A stretch of 64,000 nt of DNA. Source: Siculibacillus lacustris (lineage in GTDB: Bacteria > Pseudomonadota > Alphaproteobacteria > Rhizobiales > Ancalomicrobiaceae). The stretch spans positions 223,700 to 287,699 of the forward strand of contig NZ_SJFN01000001.1 of the NCBI RefSeq assembly GCF_004328075.1, in the 5' to 3' direction. Positions 36,131-49,597 of the stretch are shown piece by piece. The translations under genes and the position numbers were made by a program. The notes under the pieces were generated by a model that saw only the letters and a program-made list of their open reading frames with translations, had not been told where the DNA came from and ran no database searches. Each line of letters starts with the position of its first letter. The first letter of the stretch is position 1.

Positions 36131-37125
36131 GACGCCGCTCCCGCCACGGGCGCGGCCTCGGTCCGCCGCAGGATCAGCTTGCCGAGTGGCCGATCGCCGC
36201 GCGAATTGAGGATCACCGCGGCCAGGATGACGAAGCCGGAGATCGCCTGTTGCCAGAAGGGCGAGACGTCGATGATCGGCAGGGCGTTGAAGATGATCAC
36301 CAGGAACAGCGCCCCGAGCAGGCAGCCGAGCACCGAGCCGCGGCCGCCGGCCATGCCGACCCCGCCGATGACGCAGGCCGCGACGGTGTTGAGTTCGAAA
36401 CCGAGCGCGATCTCGGTATAGGCGACGGCGTAGCGCGCCACCCACAGATAGCCGCACAGGCCGGCCACCAGACCGATGATCGCATAGACCAACATCAGGT
36501 TGTGGGTATCGTCGATGCCGACGTAGCGCGCCGCCACGGGATTGCCGCCGAGCGCATAGAGTTCGCGACCCTTGCGCACGTGGGCGAGGAAGGCCCAGCC
36601 GATCAGGATCACCAGTGCGGCGATCCACACGATCGAGGTCAGGCCGAACAGGCGGGCGGTCGGGAACCCGATGAAGCCGGGACCCATCTCGTGGGCGTTG
36701 ACCCAGGCGCCGCCGCTGACCTGGAACACCAGGCCGCGGAACACGCTCATGGTGCCGAGCGTCACGACGATCGGGGGGATGCGGACATAGGCGATGAGGA
36801 CGCCGTTGATCGCCCCGAGGAGCAGGCCGAGGCCGAGCGCCAGGGCCATCGTCAGGCCGACCGCCATGTCGGGATGGGCGCGCGACAGGAGCGCCACCAC
36901 CATGCCGGTCAGCGCCATGTTGGCCGAGACCGACAGGTCGATGCCGCGGGTCAGGATCGCCAGCATCTGCACCAGGGCCATCATCGACAGGATCGCCCCG
37001 TCGGTGACGATGGTGTCGAGGCTGCCCATCGACAGGAACACCGGCGCGCGCAGGGTGATCAGACCGACCAGCCCGGCGATGATCAGCGCGAGCGCCGCCT
37101 CACGGGCGCGCAACAGTTTACGCAT
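36127..37125 (-). CDS. rhaP: L-rhamnose ABC transporter permease RhaP
   Basis: This 332-residue sugar ABC permease of the RbsC class has LVQMLAILTRGIDLSVSANMALTGM, VTLGTMSVFRGLVF, GRELYALGGNPVAARYVGI and GGVGMAGGRGSVLG. The ATG overlaps the rhaT stop (ATGCGTAA) and follows AGGAG with 7-base spacing. Longer upstream frames are not needed. It forms the membrane channel together with RhaQ. Confidence 0.9.
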   Translation of the reverse strand: MRKLLRAREAALALIIAGLVGLITLRAPVFLSMGSLDTIVTDGAILSMMALVQMLAILTRGIDLSVSANMALTGMVVALLSRAHPDMAVGLTMALALGLGLLLGAINGVLIAYVRIPPIVVTLGTMSVFRGLVFQVSGGAWVNAHEMGPGFIGFPTARLFGLTSIVWIAALVILIGWAFLAHVRKGRELYALGGNPVAARYVGIDDTHNLMLVYAIIGLVAGLCGYLWVARYAVAYTEIALGFELNTVAACVIGGVGMAGGRGSVLGCLLGALFLVIIFNALPIIDVSPFWQQAISGFVILAAVILNSRGDRPLGKLILRRTEAAPVAGAAS

Positions 37126-38653
37126 GACGCTTCTCCTGGAGCCGTCCGAGGCCGGTGGCCGCGGCGACGATGGTCTCGGCATCGAAGTCGGCGCGCGCCA
37201 GTTCGCGCACCGTGTGACCCTGATGCATGACGATGATGCGGTCGGACATGCCCATCAGCTCGGGGAGCTCGGAGCTGACCATGATCACCGACAGGCCGTC
37301 GCGGACCAGTTCGGCGATGAAGGCGTGGACCGCCGATTTCGATCCCACGTCGATGCCCTTGGTCGGCTCGTCGAGGATGATCACCCCGGGGTGGGTGGCC
37401 AGCCATTTGCCGATCACCACCTTCTGCTGATTGCCGCCGGAGAGCTCCGAGACCTTCTGATCGAGGGAAGCGCATTTGATCGACAGGCGCTCGCGGAAGC
37501 GGTTGCCCACCGCCTGCTCGGCGCGATCGTTGAGGAACACCCCGTTCTTGGCCAGCGCCCGGGTCAGCGGCAAGGTGAGGTTGTCGCGGATCGACATCGG
37601 CAGGATGACCCCGGCGTGCTGGCGATCCTCGGGCACATAGACGATGCCCTGATCGATGACCTCGCGAGGGCTGCCGTGCGGCATCGGCTTGCCGTTCATC
37701 CGCATTTCGCCGCGGTCGATCGGCTTCAGGCCGAAGATCGCCTCCATCACCTCGGTGCGGCCGGCACCGACCAGACCGTAGAAGCCGAGCACTTCGCCCT
37801 TGTGGAGGGTGAAGGAGATGCCGTCGAATTCACGCGCGTTGCCGAGCCCCGAGATCTCCAGCACCGCCTCGCCGATCGTCACCTCGGGCTTGGGGAACAG
37901 TTGCGCCACCGAGCGGCCGACCATCAGGCGGACGAGATCGTCCTCGGTGACGTCGGCGATGCGGCCCTGGCCGACCCAGGCGCCGTCGCGGAAACAGGTC
38001 CAGCGGTCGGCGATGGCGAAGATCTCGTCGAACTTGTGGGAGATGTAGAGGATCGCCTTGCCCTGGGCCTGCCAGCGCCGGATGATTCCGTAGAGCTCGT
38101 GGATCTCGGCCTGGGAGAGCGCGGCGGTCGGCTCGTCGAGGATCATCACCCGGCTGTCGTGGGACAGGGCGCGAGCGATCTCGACCATGTGTTTCTGAGC
38201 GACCGAGAGGGTGTTCATCGCGGCATCGGCGTCGATGTCCGATTCGAGCTCGCGCAGGATCTCGGCGGCGCGGCGGCGCATGCCCTTCCAGTCGAGGAAG
38301 CCGCCGGCCCGGCGCTCCAGATGGCCCATGAAGATGTTCTCGGCGACCGACAGGTCCTCGAACATCACCGTCTCCTGGTGGACGGCGGTGATGCCGTGGC
38401 GCCAGGCGTCCCGGGTGTCGTGCACCTCGACCTCCTCGCCGGCGACGAAGATGCGGCCGGCGTCGGGGCGGTAGATGCCGGTCATGATCTTGACCGCGGT
38501 CGACTTGCCGGCGCCGTTCTCGCCGATCAGCGCCACCACTTCGCCGGGGTAGAGGTCGAGGTCGACGCCGTCGAGCGCCTTGACGCCGCCGAAGTGCTTC
38601 TTGATGCCCTGGAGCGAGAGGATCGGGCGATCGGTCTCGGATTGCGAGGTCAT
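37118..38653 (-). CDS. rhaT: L-rhamnose ABC transporter ATPase RhaT (two ABC domains)
   Basis: This 511-residue sugar-type (CUT2) ATPase has two ABC domains. The N-terminal one has Walker A GENGAGKST, signature LSVAQKHMVEIARAL and Walker B MILDEPTAALS. The C-terminal one has the usual degenerate Walker A GLVGAGRTE, LSGGNQQKVVIGKWL and VIILDEPTKGIDVGSK. A GTG three codons upstream is possible. It follows rhaS with an intervening GC hairpin and overlaps rhaP by 8 bases. Confidence 0.92.
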   Translation of the reverse strand: MTSQSETDRPILSLQGIKKHFGGVKALDGVDLDLYPGEVVALIGENGAGKSTAVKIMTGIYRPDAGRIFVAGEEVEVHDTRDAWRHGITAVHQETVMFEDLSVAENIFMGHLERRAGGFLDWKGMRRRAAEILRELESDIDADAAMNTLSVAQKHMVEIARALSHDSRVMILDEPTAALSQAEIHELYGIIRRWQAQGKAILYISHKFDEIFAIADRWTCFRDGAWVGQGRIADVTEDDLVRLMVGRSVAQLFPKPEVTIGEAVLEISGLGNAREFDGISFTLHKGEVLGFYGLVGAGRTEVMEAIFGLKPIDRGEMRMNGKPMPHGSPREVIDQGIVYVPEDRQHAGVILPMSIRDNLTLPLTRALAKNGVFLNDRAEQAVGNRFRERLSIKCASLDQKVSELSGGNQQKVVIGKWLATHPGVIILDEPTKGIDVGSKSAVHAFIAELVRDGLSVIMVSSELPELMGMSDRIIVMHQGHTVRELARADFDAETIVAAATGLGRLQEKRHA

Positions 38654-38685
38654 GGCGGTCACCGCACGCGAGGACGGGAGGCGAA

Positions 38686-38715
38686 GGGCGGGAGCCGGGG
38701 GCCGGGCCCCCGCCC
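38686..38715 (-). other. GC hairpin between rhaS and rhaT
   Basis: GGGCGGG (38686-38692) and CCCGCCC (38709-38715) enclose a further CGGGGGCC/GGCCCCCG pair. It lies 17 bases after the rhaS stop. It probably attenuates transcription or protects the rhaS message, giving more binding protein than membrane subunits. Confidence 0.6.
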
Positions 38716-38732
38716 TGAGATCGCGAGGCGCG

Positions 38733-39749
38733 TCAGAAGATCTTGGCGAACTTGTCGACGTTGGTCTTGTCGAACACGTAGGGCTCCGACATCGCCGCCT
38801 CGCCCGACGCGTCGATGGCGATCGACTTCATGCGGCCGACCTCGATCGTGCTGTTCGGGGCGCCGGTCGCCTTCTTGGTGGCGAGCTGGAAGGCGGCATA
38901 GGTCGCGGTGTAGCCGAGGTCGATCGGGTTCCAGATGGCGAAAGTGTCGACCGCGCCGGAATGGACGTGGCCGGCCATCTCGGAGGGCAGGCCGAGGCCG
39001 GTGACGAAGACCTTGCCGACCAGCTTCTGGTCGGTGACGGCCTTGGCCGAGGCGGTGATGCCGACGGTGGTCGGGGCGATGATCGCCTTCAGGTCGGGAT
39101 GCTTGCGGAACAGGCCGATGGCTTCGCGATAGCTCTTGTCGGACTGGTCGTCACCGTAGACCACGTCGACCAGCTTCAGATCCTTGTAGGCCGGCTCGGC
39201 CAGCACCTTCTTCATCTCGGCGATCCAGATGTTCTGGTTGGTCGCCTGGGCGGTCGCCGAGAGGATGGCGATCTCGCCCTTGCCGCCGAGGGTCTTGGCG
39301 GCCATCTCGATCTGCTTGCGGCCGATCAGGTCGGCCTTAGACGGATTGAGCTGGAAGACGCGGCCGGCGGGGGCGACGCCGGCGTCGAAGGACATCACGG
39401 TGATGCCGCGGGCCATGGCCTTCTTGGCGACCGGGACCAGCGCGTCGGGATCGTTGGCGGAGATGACGATGGCGTTGACGTTCTGGGCGATCAACGAGTT
39501 GATGATGTCGATCTGGCCTTCGGCGGTCGGGGTGGTGGGTCCGGTATAGATCAGCTTGGCGCCGGGCAGCGCCTTGATCGCCTCTTCGCCGCCTTCGTGG
39601 GCGGCGTCGAAGAAGCCGTTGCCGAGGTTCTTGACGACCATGGCGATGCGCACGTCGTCGGCGCGGGCGGCGAGGCTCGCGCCCAACACGGACGCGGCGG
39701 CGAGGATCGTGGCGGCGGCCAACTTGCCGAAATGGAGCTTCACACTCAT
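38733..39749 (-). CDS. rhaS: L-rhamnose ABC transporter periplasmic binding protein RhaS
   Basis: This 338-residue periplasmic-binding-protein type I (RbsB-like) has a signal peptide (about residues 1-30, ending LAARADD). The core reads RIAMVVKNLGNGFFDAAHEGGEEA, IDIINSLIAQNVNAIVISANDPDAL, ITVMSFDAGV and TVGITASAKAV. ATG 39749 is chosen because GGAGG is 8-9 bases before it; the ATG two codons earlier is too close to that site. It is 106 bases after the mutarotase gene, long enough for an extra promoter. Note that in enterobacteria the name rhaS means an AraC regulator instead. Confidence 0.9.
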   Translation of the reverse strand: MSVKLHFGKLAAATILAAASVLGASLAARADDVRIAMVVKNLGNGFFDAAHEGGEEAIKALPGAKLIYTGPTTPTAEGQIDIINSLIAQNVNAIVISANDPDALVPVAKKAMARGITVMSFDAGVAPAGRVFQLNPSKADLIGRKQIEMAAKTLGGKGEIAILSATAQATNQNIWIAEMKKVLAEPAYKDLKLVDVVYGDDQSDKSYREAIGLFRKHPDLKAIIAPTTVGITASAKAVTDQKLVGKVFVTGLGLPSEMAGHVHSGAVDTFAIWNPIDLGYTATYAAFQLATKKATGAPNSTIEVGRMKSIAIDASGEAAMSEPYVFDKTNVDKFAKIF

Positions 39750-39855
39750 CTGCATTTCCTCCGTTTTCTTGCTCTTCGTCGTCTTCTTCGTCGTTCGGGA
39801 TCGCGGGTCTCGATCCGGCCGGGCGCTCCGCAGGCGGGACGCGGCGGCGGTCGGA

Positions 39856-40170
39856 TCAAGCGAGGTGGAAGACCTCGACGAGGTCTTCGGAGACCGGGCT
39901 GCCGTCGGGGTTCGACGGCATGATGTCGGCCATGAACGCCCACCAGCGGCGGCACACGTCGGTGGCGGCCACCGCCGCCCAGCGCTCTTCGCTGTCGATC
40001 TCGACCTGGGCGAACAGCAGGCTGCGTTTCGCATCGAGCCAGATCGAATAGTTCGAAGCGCCGTGGGCGGAGAGTACCGCCGCGAGCTCCGGCCAGATCG
40101 CGTCGTGGCGGCGGCGATATTCGTCGTGGGCCGCCGGATCGACGGCCATCAGGAAGGCCTTGCGGGTCAT
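39856..40170 (-). CDS. rhaM: L-rhamnose mutarotase
   Basis: This 104-residue protein has the same length as E. coli RhaM, with the [12 protein letters not shown] motif that includes the catalytic His22 and the C-terminal [17 protein letters not shown] stretch. It interconverts alpha and beta anomers of L-rhamnose before the isomerase step. It is called rhaU in rhizobia, where it was found to be needed for rhamnose growth. The ATG overlaps the rhaD stop by 4 bases. Confidence 0.95.
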
Positions 40171-41030
40171 GCGCGCACCACCTTCGGTGCGAGGTGCCAA
40201 CCGTCGCGGGCCATCGCCTCGGCCTGCGGCACGACGCGGAAGCGGGCGGCGAGATCGATCAGGTTCTGCGTCGCCATCGACTGGAACGGGCCGCCCATCG
40301 AGATCACCTTGACCAGGATCTCGGCCGACTTCTCGGCGGTGTCGATCAGGCCAAAGGCGTCGTCGAGCGTCGGCCCGGCGCCGAACACGCCGTGGAACGG
40401 CCACAGGGTCAGCGGCCGGCGGCCGAGGGCTTCCGCCGTGGCGTCCCCGATGACGTCGGTGCCCGGCACCAGCCAGGGGATCGTCGCCACGCCTTCGGGG
40501 AACACCACCAGACATTCGGTCGAGCCCTCCCACAGCGCCCGGGTGACGTTGGCGTCGGTCCAGGCGAGGACATAGGTCAGCGCGATCAGATTGGTGGCGT
40601 GGCAGTGCATGATCACCCGGTCGCGGCCGGCCGTCGCCTTCTGGCGGGCGAGATGCGACTTGAAGTGGGCCGGCAGTTCCGAGGTCGGGCCGCCGCCGTC
40701 GGAATAGCCCCACAGCACCTCGACCGCGGCGCCGTCGGCGGTCACCCGGATGACCCCGAGATTGGCGGCGGGATCGATCTGGACGTTGCGGAAGAACTTG
40801 CCGGTGCCGGTGACGATGTAGCTCTGACCGGCGATCTCGGGGATCGCCTCGGTCATCGGCAGGCGGCGGGTCTCGCCGATGCCGGCGAGATACGGTGCGA
40901 CGTCGGCGTCGGTCAGGCGCAGGCTGACGTTGCCGCCGTTGCGTTCGTCCCAGCCCTTCTCCCACATGTCGGTGGTCGCCTTGACCATCGCCGCGACGAA
41001 CCAGGCATCGTTCATGGTCGCGGTCATCAT
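40167..41030 (-). CDS. rhaD: Rhamnulose-1-phosphate aldolase, E. coli-type class II
   Basis: This 287-residue zinc aldolase splits L-rhamnulose-1-phosphate to dihydroxyacetone phosphate and L-lactaldehyde. The zinc ligands His142 and His144 ([10 protein letters not shown]) and His213 (WPFHGVFG), with catalytic Glu118 (TSELP), match E. coli residues 141, 143, 212 and 117 with an offset of one. MM at the start leaves two ATG choices, both served by GGGAGG. It overlaps rhaA and rhaM. A second, fused aldolase for the same step lies at 47501-49597. Confidence 0.95.
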
Positions 41031-42301
41031 GCCGCCTCCCGCTCGCTGAGAATCTTCGCCTCGTAGGCCTTCACCACGTCGAGCCAACGGCCGCCGACCG
41101 GCACGCCGCGGCTCAGGCAGTAGTGGTCCCAGACCGCGGTCCAGGGCCCGGACTTGTGTTCCTCGAACAGCGCCAGACGGGTGGCGAAGTCGCCGGCGGC
41201 TTCCGCGGCGCGCAGCGCGGCGCGCGGCTCGAGCAGGGCCTTGAGCAGCGCCTTGCGCATGTTGCGGGTGCCGATCACCCAGGCGGCGATGCGATTGATC
41301 GAGGCATCGAAATAGTCGAGGCCGATCGCCACCCGATCGGTGACGTCGCCGCGCACGATCTCCGAGGCGATCGCCTGGGTCTCGTCGTCGAACAGCACGA
41401 CGTGGTCGCTGTCCCAGCGCATCGGCCGCGACACGTGCAGCAGCACCTCGTCGACCAGCGCCAGCACCGCCGACAGCTTGTCGGAGACCACTTCGGTCGG
41501 ATGGAAATGGCCGGCGTCGAGGCACAGCATGGTGCCGCGGGCGGCGGCATAGGCGAGGTAGAATTCGTTCGAGCCGACGGTATAGGCCTCGGCGCCGATG
41601 CCGAACAACTTGCCCTCGACCGCGTCCTTGTGGAAGGCCTTGTCGATCGGCGTGGCGAGGATCTCGTCGAGAGCGTCGCGCAGGCGCAGGCGCGGCGAGA
41701 ATCGGTCGGCGGGCAGGTCCTTGGAGCCGTCGGGGATCCAGATGTTCATCACCGAGGGCGTGCCCAGCGCCCGGCCGAAGGATTCCGAGACCCGACGCGA
41801 GGCCTTGCAGTGATCGATCCAGAAGCGACGGATGCCGGCGTCGGGATGGGACAGGGTGCGGTTGTCGGCGCTCAGCGGATGGGAGAAGCAGGTCGGGTTG
41901 AAGTCGAGGCCGATGCCGCGGGCCCTGGCCCAGTCGACCCAGTTGCGGAAATGCACCGGCTCGATTTCGTCGCGGCCCACCGGGCGGTCGGCCTCGAGGT
42001 AGATCGCGTGGAGATTGAGCCGCTTGGGGCCGGGGATCAGCGACATCGCGAGGTCGAGGTCGGCGCGCAGTTGGCCAGGCGTGGCGGCGCGGCCGGGATG
42101 GTTGCCGGTGACCTGGATGCCGCCGGTCAGTTCGCCCGCGGCGGTCTCGAAGCCGCGCACGTCGTCGCCCTGCCAGCAGTGCATCGAGATCGGCACGCCG
42201 TCGAGCCGGGCAAGGGCGGCGTCGACGTCGATGCCGCCGGCCGCGAAGCGATCGCGTGCCGCCTGATAGGCCGCGCGGACGGACGTTTCGGTGATCGTCA
42301 C
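41027..42301 (-). CDS. rhaA: L-rhamnose isomerase, E. coli-type RhaA
   Basis: This 424-residue isomerase converts L-rhamnose to L-rhamnulose. It follows E. coli RhaA throughout: [79 protein letters not shown]. The Mn2+ ligands are His265, Asp297 and Asp299 (262, 294 and 296 in E. coli). It is not the shorter Pseudomonas/rhizobial RhaI type. The GTG start overlaps the rhaB stop (GTGA) and has AGGAG 8 bases upstream. Confidence 0.96.
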
Positions 42302-43767
42302 GGCTGTGTCTCCTGTGGGTGGCGCCGGCCGACCGAGCGGAAGCGGCGCCGGACCGGATCGGGGACCGATCCGCGGGGTTCGAAGTCTTCGACGGCGAAG
42401 GAGCGGCGGACCAGGGTGCGGGCCTCGTCGACGTCCCGCAGCGCCCCGAGCGCGATCATCTGGACGCAGACGTTGCCGAGCGCCGAGGTCTCGACCGGCC
42501 CGGCGGAGACCGGGAGGTCGCAGGCGTCGGCGGCGAGCTGGTCGAGGAAGCGGTTGCGGCTGCCGCCGCCGACGATGCGCAGCCGCGCGAAGGGCCGCCC
42601 GCGCAGATCTTCGAGGGCGCGCTTCACCTCGGCATAGGACAGCGCCAGACTCTCGAAGACGCAGCGCGCCAGGGCGCCGAGGCCTTCGGGGCGCGGCTCG
42701 CCGGTCTCGGCGCAGGCGGCTTCGACCGCGGCGGTCATCGAGGGCGGCGACAGGAAGCGCTCGTCGTCGAGATCGACCAGCGAGCGCCAGGGTTCGGCAG
42801 CCTCCGCGGCGGCGATGAGTCTCTCCCAGGACGGGTTGCCGGCCTCGTCGCGGATCCGTTGGATCGGCCACATACCCGCGATGTTCTTCAACACGCGGAA
42901 GCGGCGGCCCCAGCCGCCTTCGTTGGAGACGCCGAGGCGCAGAGCCTTGGGCGAGGTGAAGGCTTTCGGGCTCTCGAAGCCCATCAGCGACCAGGTGCCG
43001 GAGCTGACGAAGAGATCGTCGGGCGAGGAGAGCGGGGCGGCGACCACCGCCGACGCGGTGTCGTGGCTGGCCACCGCGATCACCGCGACCGATCGCGCCG
43101 GGTCGGCCGACGAGGGAATGGTGCCGAGGATGGTGCCGGGTTCGACCGGGCGACCGGCGAGCGGCAGCCGCCCGAGGCCGAGGGCGGCGAGCAGGCCGCG
43201 GTCCCAGTCGTCGCCGTGCAGCCCGTAGAACTGGGTGGTGGTGGCGTTGGTGTATTCGTTGGCGAGGAACCCGGAGAGGCGGAAGATCAGGTAGTCCGGC
43301 ACCATCAGGAAATGGCGGGCGCGCGCGAGCAGGTCGGGCTGCAGGCGGGCCAGCGCCGTCAGCTGATAGAGGGTGTTGAAGGGCAGGAACTGGATGCCGG
43401 TGCGGCGCCAGATTTCGGCGCGGGACACTTCGGCGAAGACCCGCTCGCGCTCGCCGTCGGTGCGATGGTCGCGATAAGCCCAGACCGGGCCGAGGCGGCG
43501 GAAGTCGGCGTCGAGCAGGACGTGGTCGACGGCCCAGCCGTCGATACCGAAGCCGTCGATCGGCCCGGCGGCCTCGGCAGCGGCGAGGCCCTTGCGGATC
43601 TCGGCTTCGATCAGGTCGACGTCCCAGGTCCACGAGCCGGCGGCGGGACCGGCGACCATCGGCGAGGCGAAGCGATGGACCTCGTCGATCACCAGGCGAT
43701 CGGCGCGCCGTTCTCCGACGATCACCCGCCCACTGCCGGCGCCCAGGTCCACGGCCGCACAACGCAT
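42298..43767 (-). CDS. rhaB: L-rhamnulokinase
   Basis: This 489-residue FGGY kinase phosphorylates L-rhamnulose at O1 and has the same length as E. coli RhaB. Matching segments: [80 protein letters not shown] and [21 protein letters not shown] precedes ATG 43767. It is the first gene of the eight-gene minus-strand operon rhaB-A-D-M-S-T-P-Q. Its upstream region carries repeats likely to be regulatory. Confidence 0.95.
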
Positions 43768-43865
43768 CCCGTCGTCTCCTCCGTCGGGGCGACCTCGGCG
43801 GGTCCCATCCTTCGACGATGGGAGAAGCTTAGCATCGGGTACGGGGGGCATTCCTCGAGAGCGCG

Positions 43866-43915
43866 GCGTCAAAATCGCTCATCGGCGGTCGAAAATCGAA
43901 GATCGGCGATGAGCG
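43866..43915 (-). promoter_or_regulatory. Repeat-rich control region of the rhaB operon
   Basis: Reading toward rhaB, TGAGCGATTTTGACGC (complement of 43866-43881) resembles the TGATCG-N4-TGATCG boxes at the other rha promoters. There is also an imperfect tandem repeat (43868-43887 and 43888-43908, sharing GTC, AAAATCG and ATCGGCG) and an inverted repeat CGCTCATCG/CGATGAGCG (43876-43884, 43907-43915). It starts about 100 bases before rhaB, so both RhaR and the AraC-type activator could bind here. Confidence 0.55.
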
Positions 43916-43952
43916 CGGTCCGACGACGGCGAAGGAGCCTTCGCGCAAACGA

Positions 43953-43977
43953 GAAGGGCGGCCGCCGGCCGCCCTTC
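43953..43977 (-). terminator. Terminator of fucO
   Basis: GAAGGGCGGCC and GGCCGCCCTTC form a perfect 11-base stem with loop GCC, 41 bases after the fucO stop. On the minus strand the stem is followed by TCTCGTTTGCG. Confidence 0.8.
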
Positions 43978-44018
43978 CATCGACGTCTGCAGAGCCGCGG
44001 ATCCGCGGCAGCGGCGCA

Positions 44019-45167
44019 TCACATCGCTTCGCGGAACAGCGCCAGGACCTGATCGTCGTTCATCGGCACCGGATTGCCCGGGGCGCAGGGATCCTTCTGG
44101 GCCTTGGCGACGAAGGTCGGGAGATCCGCCTCGGTGACGCCGAGTTCGCCGAAGCCGTGGGGGATGCCGACCTTCGCCGACAGATCGCGGATCGCGGCGA
44201 TGGCGGCGAGCGAGGCGGCTTCCTCGGACAGACCGGCGGTGTCGACGCCCATCGCCTGGGCGATGCGGGCGAAGCGGGCGACGGCGTGCGGCCGGTTGAA
44301 GGCCTCGACGATCGGCAGCAGGATGGCGTTGCACACGCCGTGCGGCAGATCCTTCACGGCACCGGGCTGATGGGCCATGGCGTGGACATAGCCGAGGCCG
44401 GCGGAGTTGAAGGCGAGACCGGCGATGAACTGGCCGTAGGCCATCATCTCGCGGGCTTCGAGGTCGTGACCGTCGGCCACGGCGCGCGGCAGGAAGGCGG
44501 CGATCAGGCGGATCGCCTCGAGCGCCGAGAAGTCGGTGAGCACGTGGTGGCCGAGCGAGACATAGGCCTCGATCGCATGGGTCAGGGCGTCCATGCCGGT
44601 CGCGGCGGTGGTCGCGGCGGGAATCCCGAGCATCATCGAGGCGTCGTTGACCGACACGTCCGGAATGATATTGGCGTCGATGATGACCATCTTCACCTGC
44701 GCCGCCGGGTCGGTGATGACGGCGTTGGAGGTGACTTCCGCGGCGGTGCCGGCGGTGGTGTTGACGGCGATCAGGAAGGCCCCGACTTTTCCGACCTTGC
44801 CGACGCCGTTGTAGAGGGTGATCGGGCCGGGGTTGGCGGAGAGAATGCGCACCGCCTTGCCGGTGTCGATCGGGCTGCCGCCACCGACCGCGACGATCGA
44901 ATCACAGCCTTCGGCCTGGAAGATCGCGAAGGCCGCCTCGACCTGGATGACGGTCGGATTGGGGACCACGCCGTCGTAGATCGCCGGGGTGAGGCCGGCG
45001 GCCTTCAGGCCGTCGACCAGCGGCTGGACCACGCCGAGCCGGGTGAGCGTCGAGTCCGTGACGATCAGCGGCTTGACGCAGCCGTGGGCGACGAGCTCGG
45101 CCGGGACGTCGGCGAGAGCGCCGGCACCGGAGAGATTGATCTTGGGGAAACACAGGCGAAAGGTCAT
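44019..45167 (-). CDS. fucO: Iron-dependent lactaldehyde reductase (FucO-like)
   Basis: This 382-residue group III iron-dependent alcohol dehydrogenase has the same length as E. coli FucO. It has the NAD motif GGGSPIDTGKA and metal ligands Asp193, His197 (GMDALTHAIEAYVS), His262 and His276 (GYVHAMAHQPGAVKDLPHGVCNA). It reduces L-lactaldehyde from rhamnulose-1-phosphate cleavage to L-1,2-propanediol, or could run in the oxidative direction. GAGG precedes ATG 45167. It lies 156 bases downstream of rhaR on the same strand and has its own terminator. Confidence 0.88.
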   Translation of the reverse strand: MTFRLCFPKINLSGAGALADVPAELVAHGCVKPLIVTDSTLTRLGVVQPLVDGLKAAGLTPAIYDGVVPNPTVIQVEAAFAIFQAEGCDSIVAVGGGSPIDTGKAVRILSANPGPITLYNGVGKVGKVGAFLIAVNTTAGTAAEVTSNAVITDPAAQVKMVIIDANIIPDVSVNDASMMLGIPAATTAATGMDALTHAIEAYVSLGHHVLTDFSALEAIRLIAAFLPRAVADGHDLEAREMMAYGQFIAGLAFNSAGLGYVHAMAHQPGAVKDLPHGVCNAILLPIVEAFNRPHAVARFARIAQAMGVDTAGLSEEAASLAAIAAIRDLSAKVGIPHGFGELGVTEADLPTFVAKAQKDPCAPGNPVPMNDDQVLALFREAM

Positions 45168-45323
45168 GGGTCGTTCCTCGTGCGGCGGAACGCGTTGTTG
45201 CACCGGGCGTCGGCCCGGCGGGGCGAGCGGAAGGGCGTCGGACCGCGGCGTTCCGCCTGCGTGGCCCGATCGGTCGTCTCCCTTCCGTTCGAATGGGGTC
45301 GATTGCGGCGCCGCACGCGCCGA

Positions 45324-46226
45324 TCATCCGTCGAAGGCGAAGGCCACGGCATCGCCGCCACGACCACCGCCGATGCGGGCGCCTTCGGCGCGCTCGCGAT
45401 CGTCGACGGCCGGCGTGTCGGCGGCGCGCCACTGGACCGGGGGCCGGGTGCCGGCGGTCTCGACGACGGTGACGGCGACACCGGCCTGGGTCAGCATAGC
45501 CACCGTGCGCTCGTCGACGCCGTCGTCGGTGACCACCCGGTTCACGCGGTTCAGCGGGCACATGATCATGCCGCCGTGGAGCCGAAACTTGCTCGAATCG
45601 ACCAGCAGCACCACTTCGGCGGCGCGACGCATCATCTTCTGCGAGGCGCGCACCAGGAGCGGGTCGCCGTCCATGGCGCCGAAGGCGCCGACGCCCATGG
45701 CGCCGATGAACACCTTCTGGGCGAGGAAATTGTCGAGACTGTCGTGTTCGAAGGGGCTGAGCACCAAGTTGTGCTCGCGGTAGACCTCGCCGCCGGCCAG
45801 GATCACCCGTCCGTCGCCCTCGGCGATCAGCGGCAGGGCGACGGCGAGCGAATTGGTCAGCACGTTGACCGGGCGGCCGATGAGATATTCGACCATGCCG
45901 CGGGTGGTGGTGCCGCCGCCGATCATCACCGTCTCGTGGTCGTTGCACAGCGCCGCCGCCTCGCGGGCGATGGCCCGCTTCTGCGCAGCGGCGATCGCCG
46001 AGGTGGCGGCCCAGCCGCGGGTCGACAGACGATCCGGCGTGGCGTCGTCGAGCCGCTCGGCGCCGCCATGGACCTTGCGCAGCAGACGGGCGTCGGACAT
46101 GTCGGAAATGTCGCGCCGGATGGTCGCCTCCGAAGCGCCGGTCGAGCGGGTCAGCGCCGCGACCGTGACCACCCGCGTCTCCGTGAGCGCTCTGAGAATG
46201 GCCTGACGCCGTTCGATCTGATGCAC
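45324..46226 (-). CDS. rhaR: DeoR-family regulator of rhamnose genes, RhaR (rhizobial type)
   Basis: This 300-residue DeoR/GlpR-type protein has an N-terminal HTH (IERRQAILRALTETRVVTVAALTRSTGASEATIRRDI, residues 3-40) and a sugar-phosphate-sensing domain (IGGGTTTRGM, VLTNSLAV, VFIGAMGVGAFGAMDGD, VLLVDSSKFRLHG). The GTG start has GGAGG at good spacing. The last 40 or so residues after VAVTVVE form an unusual low-complexity tail not expected in the family. It is divergent from the AraC-type gene, and TGATCG boxes lie in the shared gap. In R. leguminosarum a DeoR-type RhaR represses rha genes. Confidence 0.85.
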   Translation of the reverse strand: MHQIERRQAILRALTETRVVTVAALTRSTGASEATIRRDISDMSDARLLRKVHGGAERLDDATPDRLSTRGWAATSAIAAAQKRAIAREAAALCNDHETVMIGGGTTTRGMVEYLIGRPVNVLTNSLAVALPLIAEGDGRVILAGGEVYREHNLVLSPFEHDSLDNFLAQKVFIGAMGVGAFGAMDGDPLLVRASQKMMRRAAEVVLLVDSSKFRLHGGMIMCPLNRVNRVVTDDGVDERTVAMLTQAGVAVTVVETAGTRPPVQWRAADTPAVDDRERAEGARIGGGRGGDAVAFAFDG

Positions 46227-46275
46227 GTTCCACGCCTCCGAGGGTCGCCGTCAGTCATAGCCGGCGCGGGTCGAG

Positions 46276-46291
46276 CGATCAAGTTCGATCA
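46276..46291 (-). promoter_or_regulatory. RhaR box 1 (rhaR promoter)
   Basis: Read on the minus strand the site is TGATCGAACTTGATCG: two TGATCG copies 10 bases apart, so on the same helix face. It lies 50 bases upstream of the rhaR start in the divergent gap. Confidence 0.6.
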
Positions 46292-46338
46292 TATACGTCG
46301 AAACATCTAAGGAAACCGCGCGTGTTTTGCGCTGGCTA

Positions 46339-46354
46339 TGATCGCTTTTGCGCG
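46339..46354 (+). promoter_or_regulatory. Degenerate RhaR box (AraC-gene side)
   Basis: TGATCGCTTTTGCGCG matches TGATCGATTTTGATCG at 13 of 16 positions, 125 bases before the AraC-type gene. It may let RhaR also control the activator gene. Confidence 0.4.
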
Positions 46355-46478
46355 ATATGGTCGGCGACTGCGAAGTCGAATGGGGACATCAGATCCACCC
46401 CGGAACGCCGCGCGAACCTCTGCGGAGGGGCTGCACGTCGCTTTCCGCGTCGACGCGCAACGTCCAGGGAGGCGACAC

Positions 46479-47360
46479 ATGAACCGGGCCGGACACGCTC
46501 CTTTCGGAATGCGGCTGACGTCGCGCGATTTCTTCGCTTCGTCCGATCAGGCGATCGCCGTCGAACCGCGCAACCCCCAAGACGAATTCCCACTGCACGA
46601 CCACGACTTCGACGAGATCGTCATCGTCATGTCGGGCAACGGCTGGCACATTCTCAACGACGCCTCGCATTACATCACCTGCGGCGAGATCTTCTACATC
46701 GACGCCAAGGATCATCATCAGTTCTGCCAGGTCTCCGACCTCAAGCTGACCAACATCCTCTACCGCTTCGACCGGCTGTCGATCGCCAATCCCAGCATCC
46801 TGCCGTTGCTCGGCGGCGGCGAGGCGCAGCCCGATCGCCTGCGCCATTGGCAGATCTCCGAGGACGTCCTGGCGCGGGTCCAGCCGCTGGTCGCCGCCCT
46901 CGAGACCGAGAGCACCCGCCCCGACGCGCTGTCGCAGACCCTGTCGGAAGCGCTCTTCGTGCAGTTGCTGATCCTCTTGGCGCGCAATCGCTTTCCGGTG
47001 CTCGGCGGTGAACTGCACCGCGGCGCCAAGCTCGGCCACGTGCTGAGCTGGCTGCGCCACCGCTGCACCGAGCCGGTCGATTTCGACGACGTGGCGCGGT
47101 CGCTCGGCTGTTCGACCCGCAGCCTCAATCGCCAGTTCCGCGAGGTGATCGGCGCATCGCCCAACCAGTATCTCGGCTGCCTGCGGCTCAATCGGGCGAT
47201 GAACGCGCTGCGCAGCAGCGATCGCAGCATCTGCGAAGTGGCCTTCGACTCCGGCTACAACGACAGCAACTATTTCTCCTTCTGTTTCAGCCGGACCACC
47301 GGCATGTCGCCGCGCGAGTACCGCCGCAGCGCCGGCGGGCTCCGGTCCGTGGCGGCGTGA
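46479..47360 (+). CDS. AraC-family activator related to E. coli RhaS/RhaR
   Basis: This 293-residue protein has an N-terminal cupin domain (VEPRNPQDEFPLHDHDFDEIVIVMSGNG, TCGEIFYIDAKDHH, LKLTNILYRFDRL) and a C-terminal pair of AraC HTH motifs (DFDDVARSLGCSTRSLNRQFREVIGASPNQYL; ICEVAFDSGYNDSNYFSFCFSRTTGMSPREYR). The cupin wording closely follows E. coli RhaS and RhaR (VAIEPR, DF..H.HDF.EIVIV, LTN.LYR). ATG 46479 follows AGGGAGG and gives the expected length. It lies next to rhaR and 140 bases before the fused rhaD. It probably activates the rha genes in response to L-rhamnose. Confidence 0.88.
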   Translation: MNRAGHAPFGMRLTSRDFFASSDQAIAVEPRNPQDEFPLHDHDFDEIVIVMSGNGWHILNDASHYITCGEIFYIDAKDHHQFCQVSDLKLTNILYRFDRLSIANPSILPLLGGGEAQPDRLRHWQISEDVLARVQPLVAALETESTRPDALSQTLSEALFVQLLILLARNRFPVLGGELHRGAKLGHVLSWLRHRCTEPVDFDDVARSLGCSTRSLNRQFREVIGASPNQYLGCLRLNRAMNALRSSDRSICEVAFDSGYNDSNYFSFCFSRTTGMSPREYRRSAGGLRSVAA

Positions 47361-47398
47361 GCGGCGCGGCGGCGCAGCGAGGCCGTCGCGCCGAGCAA

Positions 47399-47424
47399 TG
47401 ATCGATTTTGATCGATCATGATTG
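47399..47424 (+). promoter_or_regulatory. RhaR box 2 (fused rhaD promoter), three phased repeats
   Basis: Three hexamers, TGATCG, TGATCG and TGATTG, start at 47399, 47409 and 47419, exactly one helical turn apart. The first two overlap a 9-base inverted repeat ATGATCGAT/ATCGATCAT (47398-47419). The site is about 76 bases before the rhaD start. Confidence 0.7.
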
Positions 47425-47500
47425 ACTTCGGCGGAAACGCCCTGTCCTATGCGCGCAAACACCGACGCCGCGCGCGGCGATCCTCCAGGGAGAAGCACCC

Positions 47501-49597
47501 ATGACCGTCACCGGATCCCGGCTCGCCGACCTGTGGGACGACGGCCTCGCGGCGTCGATGTCGGAGGCCGAGCGGCTGCGCTACCGCTCCAACCTGCTCG
47601 GCTCGGATCGCCGCATCACCAATTTCGGCGGCGGCAACACCTCGGCCAAGATCGTCGAGACCGATCCGTTGACCGGGGCGGCGGTCGAGGTGTTGTGGGT
47701 CAAGGGCTCGGGCGGCGACATCGGGACGATCGGTCTCGACGGCTTCGCCACGCTCTACATGGACAAGCTCGCGCTGCTGAAGGGCCTGCACCGCGGTCCC
47801 GCCCACGAGGACGAGACCGTCGAGCGGCTCGCCCACTGCACCTTCGGGCTCAACCCCCGCGCCGCGTCGATCGACACGCCGCTGCATGCCTTCGTGCCGT
47901 TCTGCCATGTCGACCACATGCACCCGGATGCGGTGATCGCGCTGGCCGCGTCGAAGGACGGCGAGGCGGCGACCGCGGCGATCTTCGGGTCGGAGATCGG
48001 CTGGTTGCCGTGGCGGCGACCGGGCTTCGAACTGGGGTTGACGCTCGAGCGCTTCGTGCGCGACCACCCGCAGGCGGTCGGGGTGATCCTGGAGAGCCAC
48101 GGGCTGTTCACCTGGGCCGACAGCGCGAAGGCCTGCTACGCGACGACGATCCGCATCGTCAACCGGGCGATCGAGGCGATCGCAGCGGCGACCGCCGGAC
48201 GGCCGGCTTTCGGCGGGCCGGCGCGGCGGGCGCTGGCGCCCGCAGAGCGGCGAGAGGTGGCGGCGGTGCTGATGCCGGCGATCCGCGGGCTGATCTCGGC
48301 CGACGAGGCCAAGGTCGGTCATTTCGACGACGGCGACACGGTGCTCGACTTCGTGACCTCGGCCGAGTTGCACTCCCTGGCCGCGCTCGGCACCAGCTGT
48401 CCCGACCATTTTCTCCGCACCAAGATTCGGCCGCTGGTGATCGACTTCGACCCCGAATCTCCGGATCTCGCCGCGACGATCGGCGGGCTCGCCGCGGCGG
48501 TCGCCGCCTATCGCGACGACTATGCCGCCTATTACGACCGCTGCCGGCACCCCGACAGCCCGGCGCGGCGCGACGCCAATGCGATCGTCCATCTGGTGCC
48601 CGGCGTCGGCATGATCACCTTCGCCAAGGACAAGGCCACCGCCCGCATCGCCGGCGAGTTCTATGTGAATGCGATCAACGTGATGCGCGACGCTGCGCGG
48701 CTGTCCGCCTACGTCGGTCTGCCCGAGAGAGAAGCCTTCGACATCGAATATTGGGCGCTGGAAGAGGCCAAGCTCCGGCGGATGCCGAAACCGCGGCGGC
48801 TCGCCGGCAAGATCGCCCTGGTGACCGGCGGGGCCGGCGGGATCGGCCGGGCGGTCGCCGAGCGGTTGCTGCGCGACGGCGCCTGCGTGATGCTCGCCGA
48901 CGTCGACGCGCCGTCGCTTCTCGCCGCCGAGGCGGAGCTCGCGGCACGGCATTCGGCCGACGTGGTGCGCGGCGTGACCCTCGACGTGACGCGGGAAGAT
49001 CAGGTCGCGGCGGCCTTCGCGGCGACTGCGGTGGCCTTCGGCGGTCTCGACATCCTGGTGTCGAACGCCGGCATCGCCTCCTCGGCGCCGATCGACGAGA
49101 CCGATCTGGCGCTGTGGAACCGCAACATGGACATCCTGTCGACCGGCTATTTCCTGGTGTCGCGCCAGGCCTTCCGGCTGATGAAGACCCAGAAGATCGG
49201 CGGGGCGATCGTCTTCGTCGCCTCCAAGAACGGGCTGGCGGCGTCCCCCAATGCCGCCGCCTATTGCACCGCCAAGGCCGCCGAGATCCACCTCGCCCGC
49301 TGCCTCGCGCTCGAGGGGGCGGAGTTCGCGATCCGCGTCAACACCGTCAATCCCGACATGGTGCTGCGCGGCTCGAAGATCTGGAGCGGCGAATGGCGAG
49401 CCCAGCGCGCCGCCGCCTATGCCGCCGACCCGGCCGATCTGGAAGAACTCTACCGCAAGCGCTCGCTGTTGAAGCGCAGCGTCTTCCCCGAAGACGTCGC
49501 CGAGGCGGTGGCCTTCTTCGTCGGCGACGAATCGTCGAAGTCGACCGGCAACATCCTCAACGTCGACGCCGGCAACGCCCAGGCATTCCCGCGCTGA
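47501..49597 (+). CDS. rhaD: Bifunctional rhamnulose-1-phosphate aldolase/lactaldehyde dehydrogenase (rhizobial RhaD)
   Basis: This 698-residue fusion has an N-terminal class II aldolase (about residues 1-420: NFGGGNTSAK, LHAFVPFCHVDHMHPDAV, ILESHGLF) and a C-terminal SDR (from about 434: ALVTGGAGGIGRAVAE, NAGIASSAP, catalytic Tyr588-x3-Lys592 in YCTAKAAE). This is the RhaD form of rhizobia and some bacilli, which cleaves rhamnulose-1-phosphate and oxidises L-lactaldehyde to L-lactate. GGGAGA precedes the ATG. It duplicates the aldolase step of the 287-residue RhaD and offers an oxidative fate for lactaldehyde beside fucO. Confidence 0.95.
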   Translation: MTVTGSRLADLWDDGLAASMSEAERLRYRSNLLGSDRRITNFGGGNTSAKIVETDPLTGAAVEVLWVKGSGGDIGTIGLDGFATLYMDKLALLKGLHRGPAHEDETVERLAHCTFGLNPRAASIDTPLHAFVPFCHVDHMHPDAVIALAASKDGEAATAAIFGSEIGWLPWRRPGFELGLTLERFVRDHPQAVGVILESHGLFTWADSAKACYATTIRIVNRAIEAIAAATAGRPAFGGPARRALAPAERREVAAVLMPAIRGLISADEAKVGHFDDGDTVLDFVTSAELHSLAALGTSCPDHFLRTKIRPLVIDFDPESPDLAATIGGLAAAVAAYRDDYAAYYDRCRHPDSPARRDANAIVHLVPGVGMITFAKDKATARIAGEFYVNAINVMRDAARLSAYVGLPEREAFDIEYWALEEAKLRRMPKPRRLAGKIALVTGGAGGIGRAVAERLLRDGACVMLADVDAPSLLAAEAELAARHSADVVRGVTLDVTREDQVAAAFAATAVAFGGLDILVSNAGIASSAPIDETDLALWNRNMDILSTGYFLVSRQAFRLMKTQKIGGAIVFVASKNGLAASPNAAAYCTAKAAEIHLARCLALEGAEFAIRVNTVNPDMVLRGSKIWSGEWRAQRAAAYAADPADLEELYRKRSLLKRSVFPEDVAEAVAFFVGDESSKSTGNILNVDAGNAQAFPR

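Follow-up and report, generated by a model that had tools for sequence, protein, structure and literature searches.

Which regulator reads the phased TGATCG boxes of the rhamnose (rha) locus of Siculibacillus lacustris (Rhizobiales, Ancalomicrobiaceae), and how many of its genes are under that control? The locus lies in a stretch of 64,000 nucleotides of contig NZ_SJFN01000001.1 (assembly GCF_004328075.1), which is called the window here. An earlier note on this DNA had described pairs of TGATCG hexamers, 10 bases apart, before fused rhaD (here rhaEW) and rhaR and looser versions before an AraC-family gene (araC) and rhaB, and had proposed that they mark a RhaR regulon. RhaR, a DeoR-family regulator encoded beside the arrays that precede rhaEW and rhaR, very probably has its operators there. 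The boxes before araC and rhaB are of lower quality and are weighed separately.

The arrays before rhaR and rhaEW

The features on which the main result rests are the following.

45324..46226, minus strand: rhaR, DeoR-family regulator of 300 amino acids (Pfam HTH_DeoR and DeoRC)
46276..46291, minus strand: predicted RhaR operator before rhaR, TGATCGAACTTGATCG, starting 50 base pairs (bp) upstream of the rhaR start
47399..47424, plus strand: predicted RhaR operator before rhaEW, TGATCG-ATTT-TGATCG-ATCA-TGATTG
47422..47427, plus strand: -35-like hexamer TTGACT, read from the sequence, beginning inside the third box
47501..49597, plus strand: rhaEW (fused rhaD), rhamnulose-1-phosphate aldolase / short-chain dehydrogenase (NCBIfam NF006189 at 1151 bits and TIGR02632 at 1030 bits, both over cut-off)

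A reading and a scan of the window found all of the box sequences quoted by the earlier note where it had placed them. The exact pair TGATCG-N4-TGATCG was confirmed before rhaR (46276-46291, minus strand) and before rhaEW (47399-47414, plus strand). Three copies had been claimed before fused rhaD. Two of them are TGATCG, and the third phased box (47419-47424) is TGATTG. A genome-wide scan for TGATCG pairs with a 10-base period had been proposed as a check, and the exact pair proved to be rare. It occurs three times in the genome of 5,020,870 bases, twice at the rha genes just named, and the backward-read control pattern has no occurrence in the same 5.02 megabases. When TGATYG boxes with at most one mismatch were allowed, 117 places appeared in the genome, four of them exact. 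Therefore, a single degenerate pair carries little weight, and the caution of the earlier note that its two weaker arrays could be chance matches was justified. Two of the four arrays clearly exceed chance, the third is a borderline case and the fourth is indistinguishable from chance as a TGATCG motif, which confirms the initial description in part.

The third exact copy is on contig C45 of the same genome (G000; L003:1501-1516). It is located upstream of the conserved BrxA-domain part of an open reading frame, and a BrxB open reading frame is next (BREX defence). Since this copy stands beside brxA/brxB, it has no link to sugar genes. With TGATYG-N4-TGATYG as the pattern, too, the sole exact pair of the genome besides the rha sites is this one beside brxA/brxB. 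A wide RhaR regulon was rejected because no further exact TGATYG pair was found, and the RhaR regulon looks local.

The layout of the arrays agrees with a published type. Rodionova 2013 (PMC3870299) predicted direct repeats of 10-11 bp for DeoR-type RhaR, Rhizobiales included, and RhaR of Rhizobium leguminosarum is reported as a negative regulator of the rha locus (PMC9025865; PMC3870299). As in the RhaR regulon of Rhizobiales (R. leguminosarum and Sinorhizobium meliloti), the window has an orthologous, DeoR-family rhaR gene adjacent to the arrays and divergent from rhaEW. At least two direct repeats with a period of 10-11 bp stand upstream of its rha genes, and a direct-repeat operator with the 10-bp period is directed toward both genes at similar distances. 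Support for RhaR operators at rhaEW and rhaR is strong: the arrays are conserved in relatives where no AraC gene was found, rare in the genome and arranged in the published layout. We consider it very probable, from the sequence evidence, that the arrays at 46276-46291 (minus strand) and 47399-47424 (plus strand) are the two operators of the RhaR encoded at 45324-46226.

The sequence, rarity, conservation and position of the arrays were established here, and the mechanism most likely to go with them is one of direct binding, occlusion and ligand release. RhaR subunits would line up on one helix face, one per box. Because the promoter-proximal box overlaps the -35-like sequence of rhaEW, bound RhaR would block RNA polymerase. 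Rhamnose or a rhamnose-derived ligand would release RhaR. A consensus emerges clearly from the arrays for the operator of a repressor whose rhizobial motif is published as a prediction; the literature covered mentions no footprint of that motif.

The control region in relatives

The rhaR regulator was matched in 81 of 297 genomes of the order. Among the 80 other genomes (E ≤ 1e-40), the nine with the weakest matches (E 2.5e-46 and weaker) were left out, and loci were taken from 71 genomes together with two second loci (G186b and G000b), giving 73. The gene rhaR is divergent from rhaEW in 62 of these 73 loci. One locus (G167) was dropped owing to its partial rhaEW match, and the remaining 61 relatives' loci have intergenic lengths of 153-487 bp. 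Both operators lie in one short divergent region there.

A comparison of relatives' rha promoters, also proposed in the earlier note, showed that the 10-bp phased boxes are conserved in the 61 divergent loci. Same-strand TGAT[CT] pairs exactly 10 bp apart were counted 86 times, against a mean of 0.08 and a maximum of 1 in 200 base shuffles, and boxes 20 bp apart were counted 30 times. The promoter-proximal box is mostly TGATTGAC(A), carrying a -35-like TTGAC(A). GATTGAC was found toward rhaEW in 58/61 and toward rhaR in 49/61 relatives (shuffle mean 0.7), and TTGACA itself in 41/61 and 47/61, respectively. A seed score of at least 13/14 was reached on the rhaEW strand in 45 and on the rhaR strand in 32 of the 61 loci, and by none of 1220 dinucleotide shuffles. 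The distances to the genes are also similar. The window rhaR site is 55 bp from the start, compared with a median of 52 in relatives by the same measure, and the last box of the rhaEW operator is 82 bp from the start, compared with 86.

A matrix was built from the relatives without any window sequence. Seed scores of 13 or more were reached by 77 of the 122 sites that were best on their strand, and the matrix was made from the 74 whose flanks were complete. With this matrix, the window rhaEW site scored 44.3 bits and ranked first of about 128,000 positions, and the window rhaR site was the next distinct locus in the ranking. Scores above 15 bits were obtained on the rhaEW strand in 57/61 and on the rhaR strand in 45/61 relatives, partly from the training sites themselves; in the background, one of 283 stretches exceeded 15 bits, with a score equal to that of the G243 site before rhaA. 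The scores were 50.3 and 44.9 bits in Rhizobium leguminosarum and 50.4 and 44.5 bits in Sinorhizobium meliloti, near relatives of which may be in the training set. Two genomes outside training, G243 and G223, have the order rhaA-rhaD-rhaR, and their best site precedes the leading gene, rhaA. No site was seen in three further rhaA-rhaD-rhaR loci, where the stretch examined ended inside rhaA. Among seven other loci outside training with other layouts, three scored above 15 bits (G103, G051 and G167).

Several points weigh against the assignment of the two arrays to RhaR. The training sites were picked by a seed match of at least 13/14 bases, and the shuffles take no account of the dependence of the relatives on one another. 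The window rhaR site reaches just 8.1 bits by the relatives' matrix, the rhaR side is at or below 8 bits in 15/61 relatives, and the other four of the seven loci with other layouts (G122, G151 and the second loci G186b and G000b) reach just 7.6-11.5 bits. Diverged boxes occur in three genomes of the same family as the window (G230, G266 and G296). The identity of RhaR to its relatives is 37-47%, and its helix-turn-helix region agrees with the consensus of the relatives at 53% of positions, little above the 45% of the rest of the protein. Finally, the window stretch, TTGACT (47422-47427) included, yielded no promoter in a strict scan, and therefore the overlap of operator and promoter is one that we infer.

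As a separate observation, TGAGCG boxes around a TGATTGACC core were noticed at the rhaEW promoters of G230 (same family), G050, G198, G150 and G121. This box variant is underrated by the relatives' matrix.

The araC gene and the weaker boxes

The window differs from the rhizobial RhaR regulon in that araC separates the two operators and that the control region is without the PhaR palindrome. The following features are needed here.

46479..47360, plus strand: araC, RhaS/RhaR-like AraC-family gene of 293 amino acids between the two operators (NCBIfam RhaS at 231 bits, cut-off 288)
47395..47399, plus strand: GCAAT, possible right-hand remnant of a PhaR-type palindrome, judged by eye against the relatives' GCAATATGATCG
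46325..46350, plus strand: candidate AraC-type site before araC, TTTTGCGCTGGCTATGATCGCTTTTG, TTTT-N17-TTTTG as a 21-bp direct repeat, overlapping the loose box 46339-46354; suggestive only
43870..43895, minus strand: candidate AraC-type site before rhaB, TTTTCGACCGCCGATGAGCGATTTTG, the same 21-bp direct repeat TTTT-N17-TTTTG, overlapping the loose box 43866-43881; suggestive only
42298..43767, minus strand: rhaB, rhamnulokinase-like (NCBIfam rhamnulokinase models at 527 bits, cut-off 639, and 515 bits, cut-off 528), with the start at 43767 read from the sequence

The best models for the AraC protein are NCBIfam RhaS and RhaR, as for the AraC-family activators of the Escherichia coli type. However, both scores are under the equivalog cut-offs of that type (219.6 against 363 for the best RhaR model), and the gene is a single one in a locus of the rhizobial type. 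It was found in 1/297 genomes of the order, the window's own, and in none of the 296 others. Searches of 384 other class genomes (E ≤ 1e-30) and of 14 other family genomes (E ≤ 1e-25) gave no match. Matches at E ≤ 1e-30, 30-41% identical, appeared in 14/397 other genomes of the phylum. The AraC homologs are near a rhaB homolog in all 14 (23 of 28 homolog loci) and form a tandem pair in 12, and because of this layout the 14 genomes look enterobacterial. Among named genomes, a pattern-based scan gave a best AraC match of 34% identity over most of the length, and rha-type genes were near several of the best ten matches. The separation of operators that adjoin in relatives would most simply be explained by insertion of araC. 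The operators belong to a published kind, and what is less usual is the foreign-looking rhamnose regulator gene between the two sites.

The PhaR-type palindrome core TGCRNYGCA is present in the rhaR-rhaEW region of 43/61 relatives, with a background of about 0.04 per 200 bp. The relatives' palindrome usually lies between the two RhaR arrays (e.g. L205 and L206). In the intergenic stretches 46227-46478 and 47361-47500 of the window, between which araC sits, no full PhaR-type palindrome was found. The palindrome of the S. meliloti rhaD-rhaR region, kept by relatives, is thus absent here despite the PhaR (AniA) of the genome, which is over the family cut-off. For S. meliloti, weak PhaR binding to the rhaD-rhaR intergenic region in an electrophoretic mobility shift assay is reported (PMC12542648). 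No report of an araC insertion with loss of a PhaR-type palindrome came up in full-text searches, which covered open-licence papers of PubMed Central.

What, then, are the boxes before araC and rhaB? They could be halves of an AraC-type activator site, TTTT-N17-TTTTG, through which the AraC protein would drive rhaB and itself; this is a tentative possibility, somewhat less likely than not. In other lineages, AraC-type rhamnose regulators are reported to use sites with a 21-bp layout (PMC3870299), and the rhaB neighbourhood of the homologs in 14/14 other matching phylum genomes points the same way. With up to three mismatches, the consensus occurs in the genome at the two exact places, for which the count is circular, and at one three-mismatch place elsewhere. 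A combined score of identity and repeat (periods 19-23) was reached by 0/2000 shuffles and by 3/1000 random window pairs, although the motif was found post hoc and the figure with periods 9-30 was 1/400. The score that also counts the 21-bp repeat is the only araC/rhaB comparison that stands out. A motif shared by identity alone was not significant (121/600 shuffles). Plain local alignment of the two regions favoured a different stretch, and its score was reached by 385/600 shuffles. Seven AraC-homolog loci were without a comparable repeat save one weak case, and GCGNTTTT upstream of rhaB was present in 3/25 stretches of the AraC-homolog loci, some of the same genome, and is not conserved.

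The operators of E. coli-type RhaS/RhaR, an inverted repeat of 17-bp half-sites according to PMC3870299, were not found in the window either. Inverted half-sites of ten phylum-relative loci, used as a matrix of 20 half-sites, score poorly here. In the three intergenic stretches, the best places rank 65 and 127 of about 128,000, and a regular expression for RhaS/RhaR-type half-sites gave no match. Separately, a 9-bp inverted repeat, CGCTCATCG-N22-CGATGAGCG, was noticed by eye upstream of rhaB (43876-43884 / 43907-43915).

The view of the earlier note, in which one RhaR regulon takes in all four transcription units, with weaker operators at araC and rhaB, appears unlikely as a whole. The araC version (46339-46354) has two mismatches, and a generic two-box model puts it fourth, behind the rhaEW and rhaR sites alone. 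On the other hand, the relatives' matrix gives it -8.5 bits (rank 13 of about 128,000 positions), and in the three-box and the two diverged-relative models this stretch ranks 10, 17 and 20, with unrelated places above. The rhaB version (43866-43881, minus strand) is not among 138 window places with up to three mismatches, and it has -21.9 bits and rank 132 by the relatives' matrix. TGAGCG, as in the rhaB box, is a box variant in relatives including same-family G230, and the rhaB stretch comes 13th with a four-box matrix that was built from ten diverged relatives. In the other models, its best register ranks 15 (generic two-box), 27 (three-box) and 50 (the other diverged-relative matrix). The box 43866-43881 itself ranks 89 with the generic model, where the neighbouring register ranks 15. 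It does not show two good phased boxes, and unrelated places outscore it in each model. The second boxes of the two arrays are poor (TGCGCG and TGACGC), and both overlap the common 26-bp layout, which RhaR sites do not need. These rankings leave room for a weak RhaR site at the araC box and give no support to one at the rhaB box. The RhaR regulon claim therefore has strong support for rhaEW and rhaR, is possible but weak in its extension to araC, and finds no backing from the matrix or the other models in its extension to rhaB. For both boxes, a separate AraC-type repeat of 21 bp, to which they would belong, or chance is a likelier reading than a good RhaR site.

It is very unlikely that the AraC protein, rather than RhaR, reads the TGATCG boxes. 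The position of araC between the arrays and a match of ATGATCGATTTTGA (47398-47411) to the second half of the candidate AraC-type motif would suit such a role. However, relatives without any match to the gene have the phased boxes too, so AraC does not explain those, and the 10-bp layout is published for DeoR, not AraC, rhamnose regulators (PMC3870299); AraC was rejected as the reader of the boxes. Chance repetition of GATC-rich sequence is hardly credible as the origin of the strong arrays, since conservation and position in 61 relatives and the rarity of exact pairs oppose it, common as pairs with at most one mismatch are (117 in the genome).

If RhaR is kept as the reader of the two strong arrays, a broader history can be drawn, which we hold to be doubtful. 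The araC insertion may have removed the PhaR (carbon-storage) input and added a rhamnose-specific activator that drives itself and rhaB at the 21-bp direct repeats, while RhaR would still repress rhaEW and rhaR, giving dual repressor/activator control. The locus is a natural case in which a foreign-looking activator gene splits a conserved divergent control region, and the gain of one input and the loss of another are testable within one locus.

Neighbouring genes of the cluster

One further gene was placed between rhaR and rhaB.

44019..45203, minus strand: lactaldehyde reductase-like (fucO-like) gene (NCBIfam lactal_redase at 480.5 bits, cut-off 523)

Further minus-strand genes encode a rhamnose isomerase, a class II aldolase, and the substrate-binding protein and ATPase of a rhamnose-type ABC (ATP-binding cassette) transporter. 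The window differs from the rhizobial RhaR regulon in this order too, with lactaldehyde reductase, rhaB, rhaA and rhaD between rhaR and the transporter genes. A search of solved structures with RhaR returned one chain, a deoxyribose operon repressor, over the sensor part only. Plasmid-borne relatives of RhaR were mostly from Rhizobium (145/184 records), followed by Shinella, Paracoccus and others.

The fused aldolase RhaEW coexists with a separate class II aldolase and with the rhamnulokinase-like and lactaldehyde reductase-like genes (window 37118-45203), as if two rhamnose pathways had merged. For the window rhaA and rhaD, identity to the G243 and G223 genes is 74-80%. Another rhamnulokinase-like gene (57% identical) was noticed near a DeoR paralog (36% identical) on contig C13:32005-42621 (L256) of the same genome, G000. 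Such a kinase and DeoR paralog are also carried on one contig by G266 and G296.

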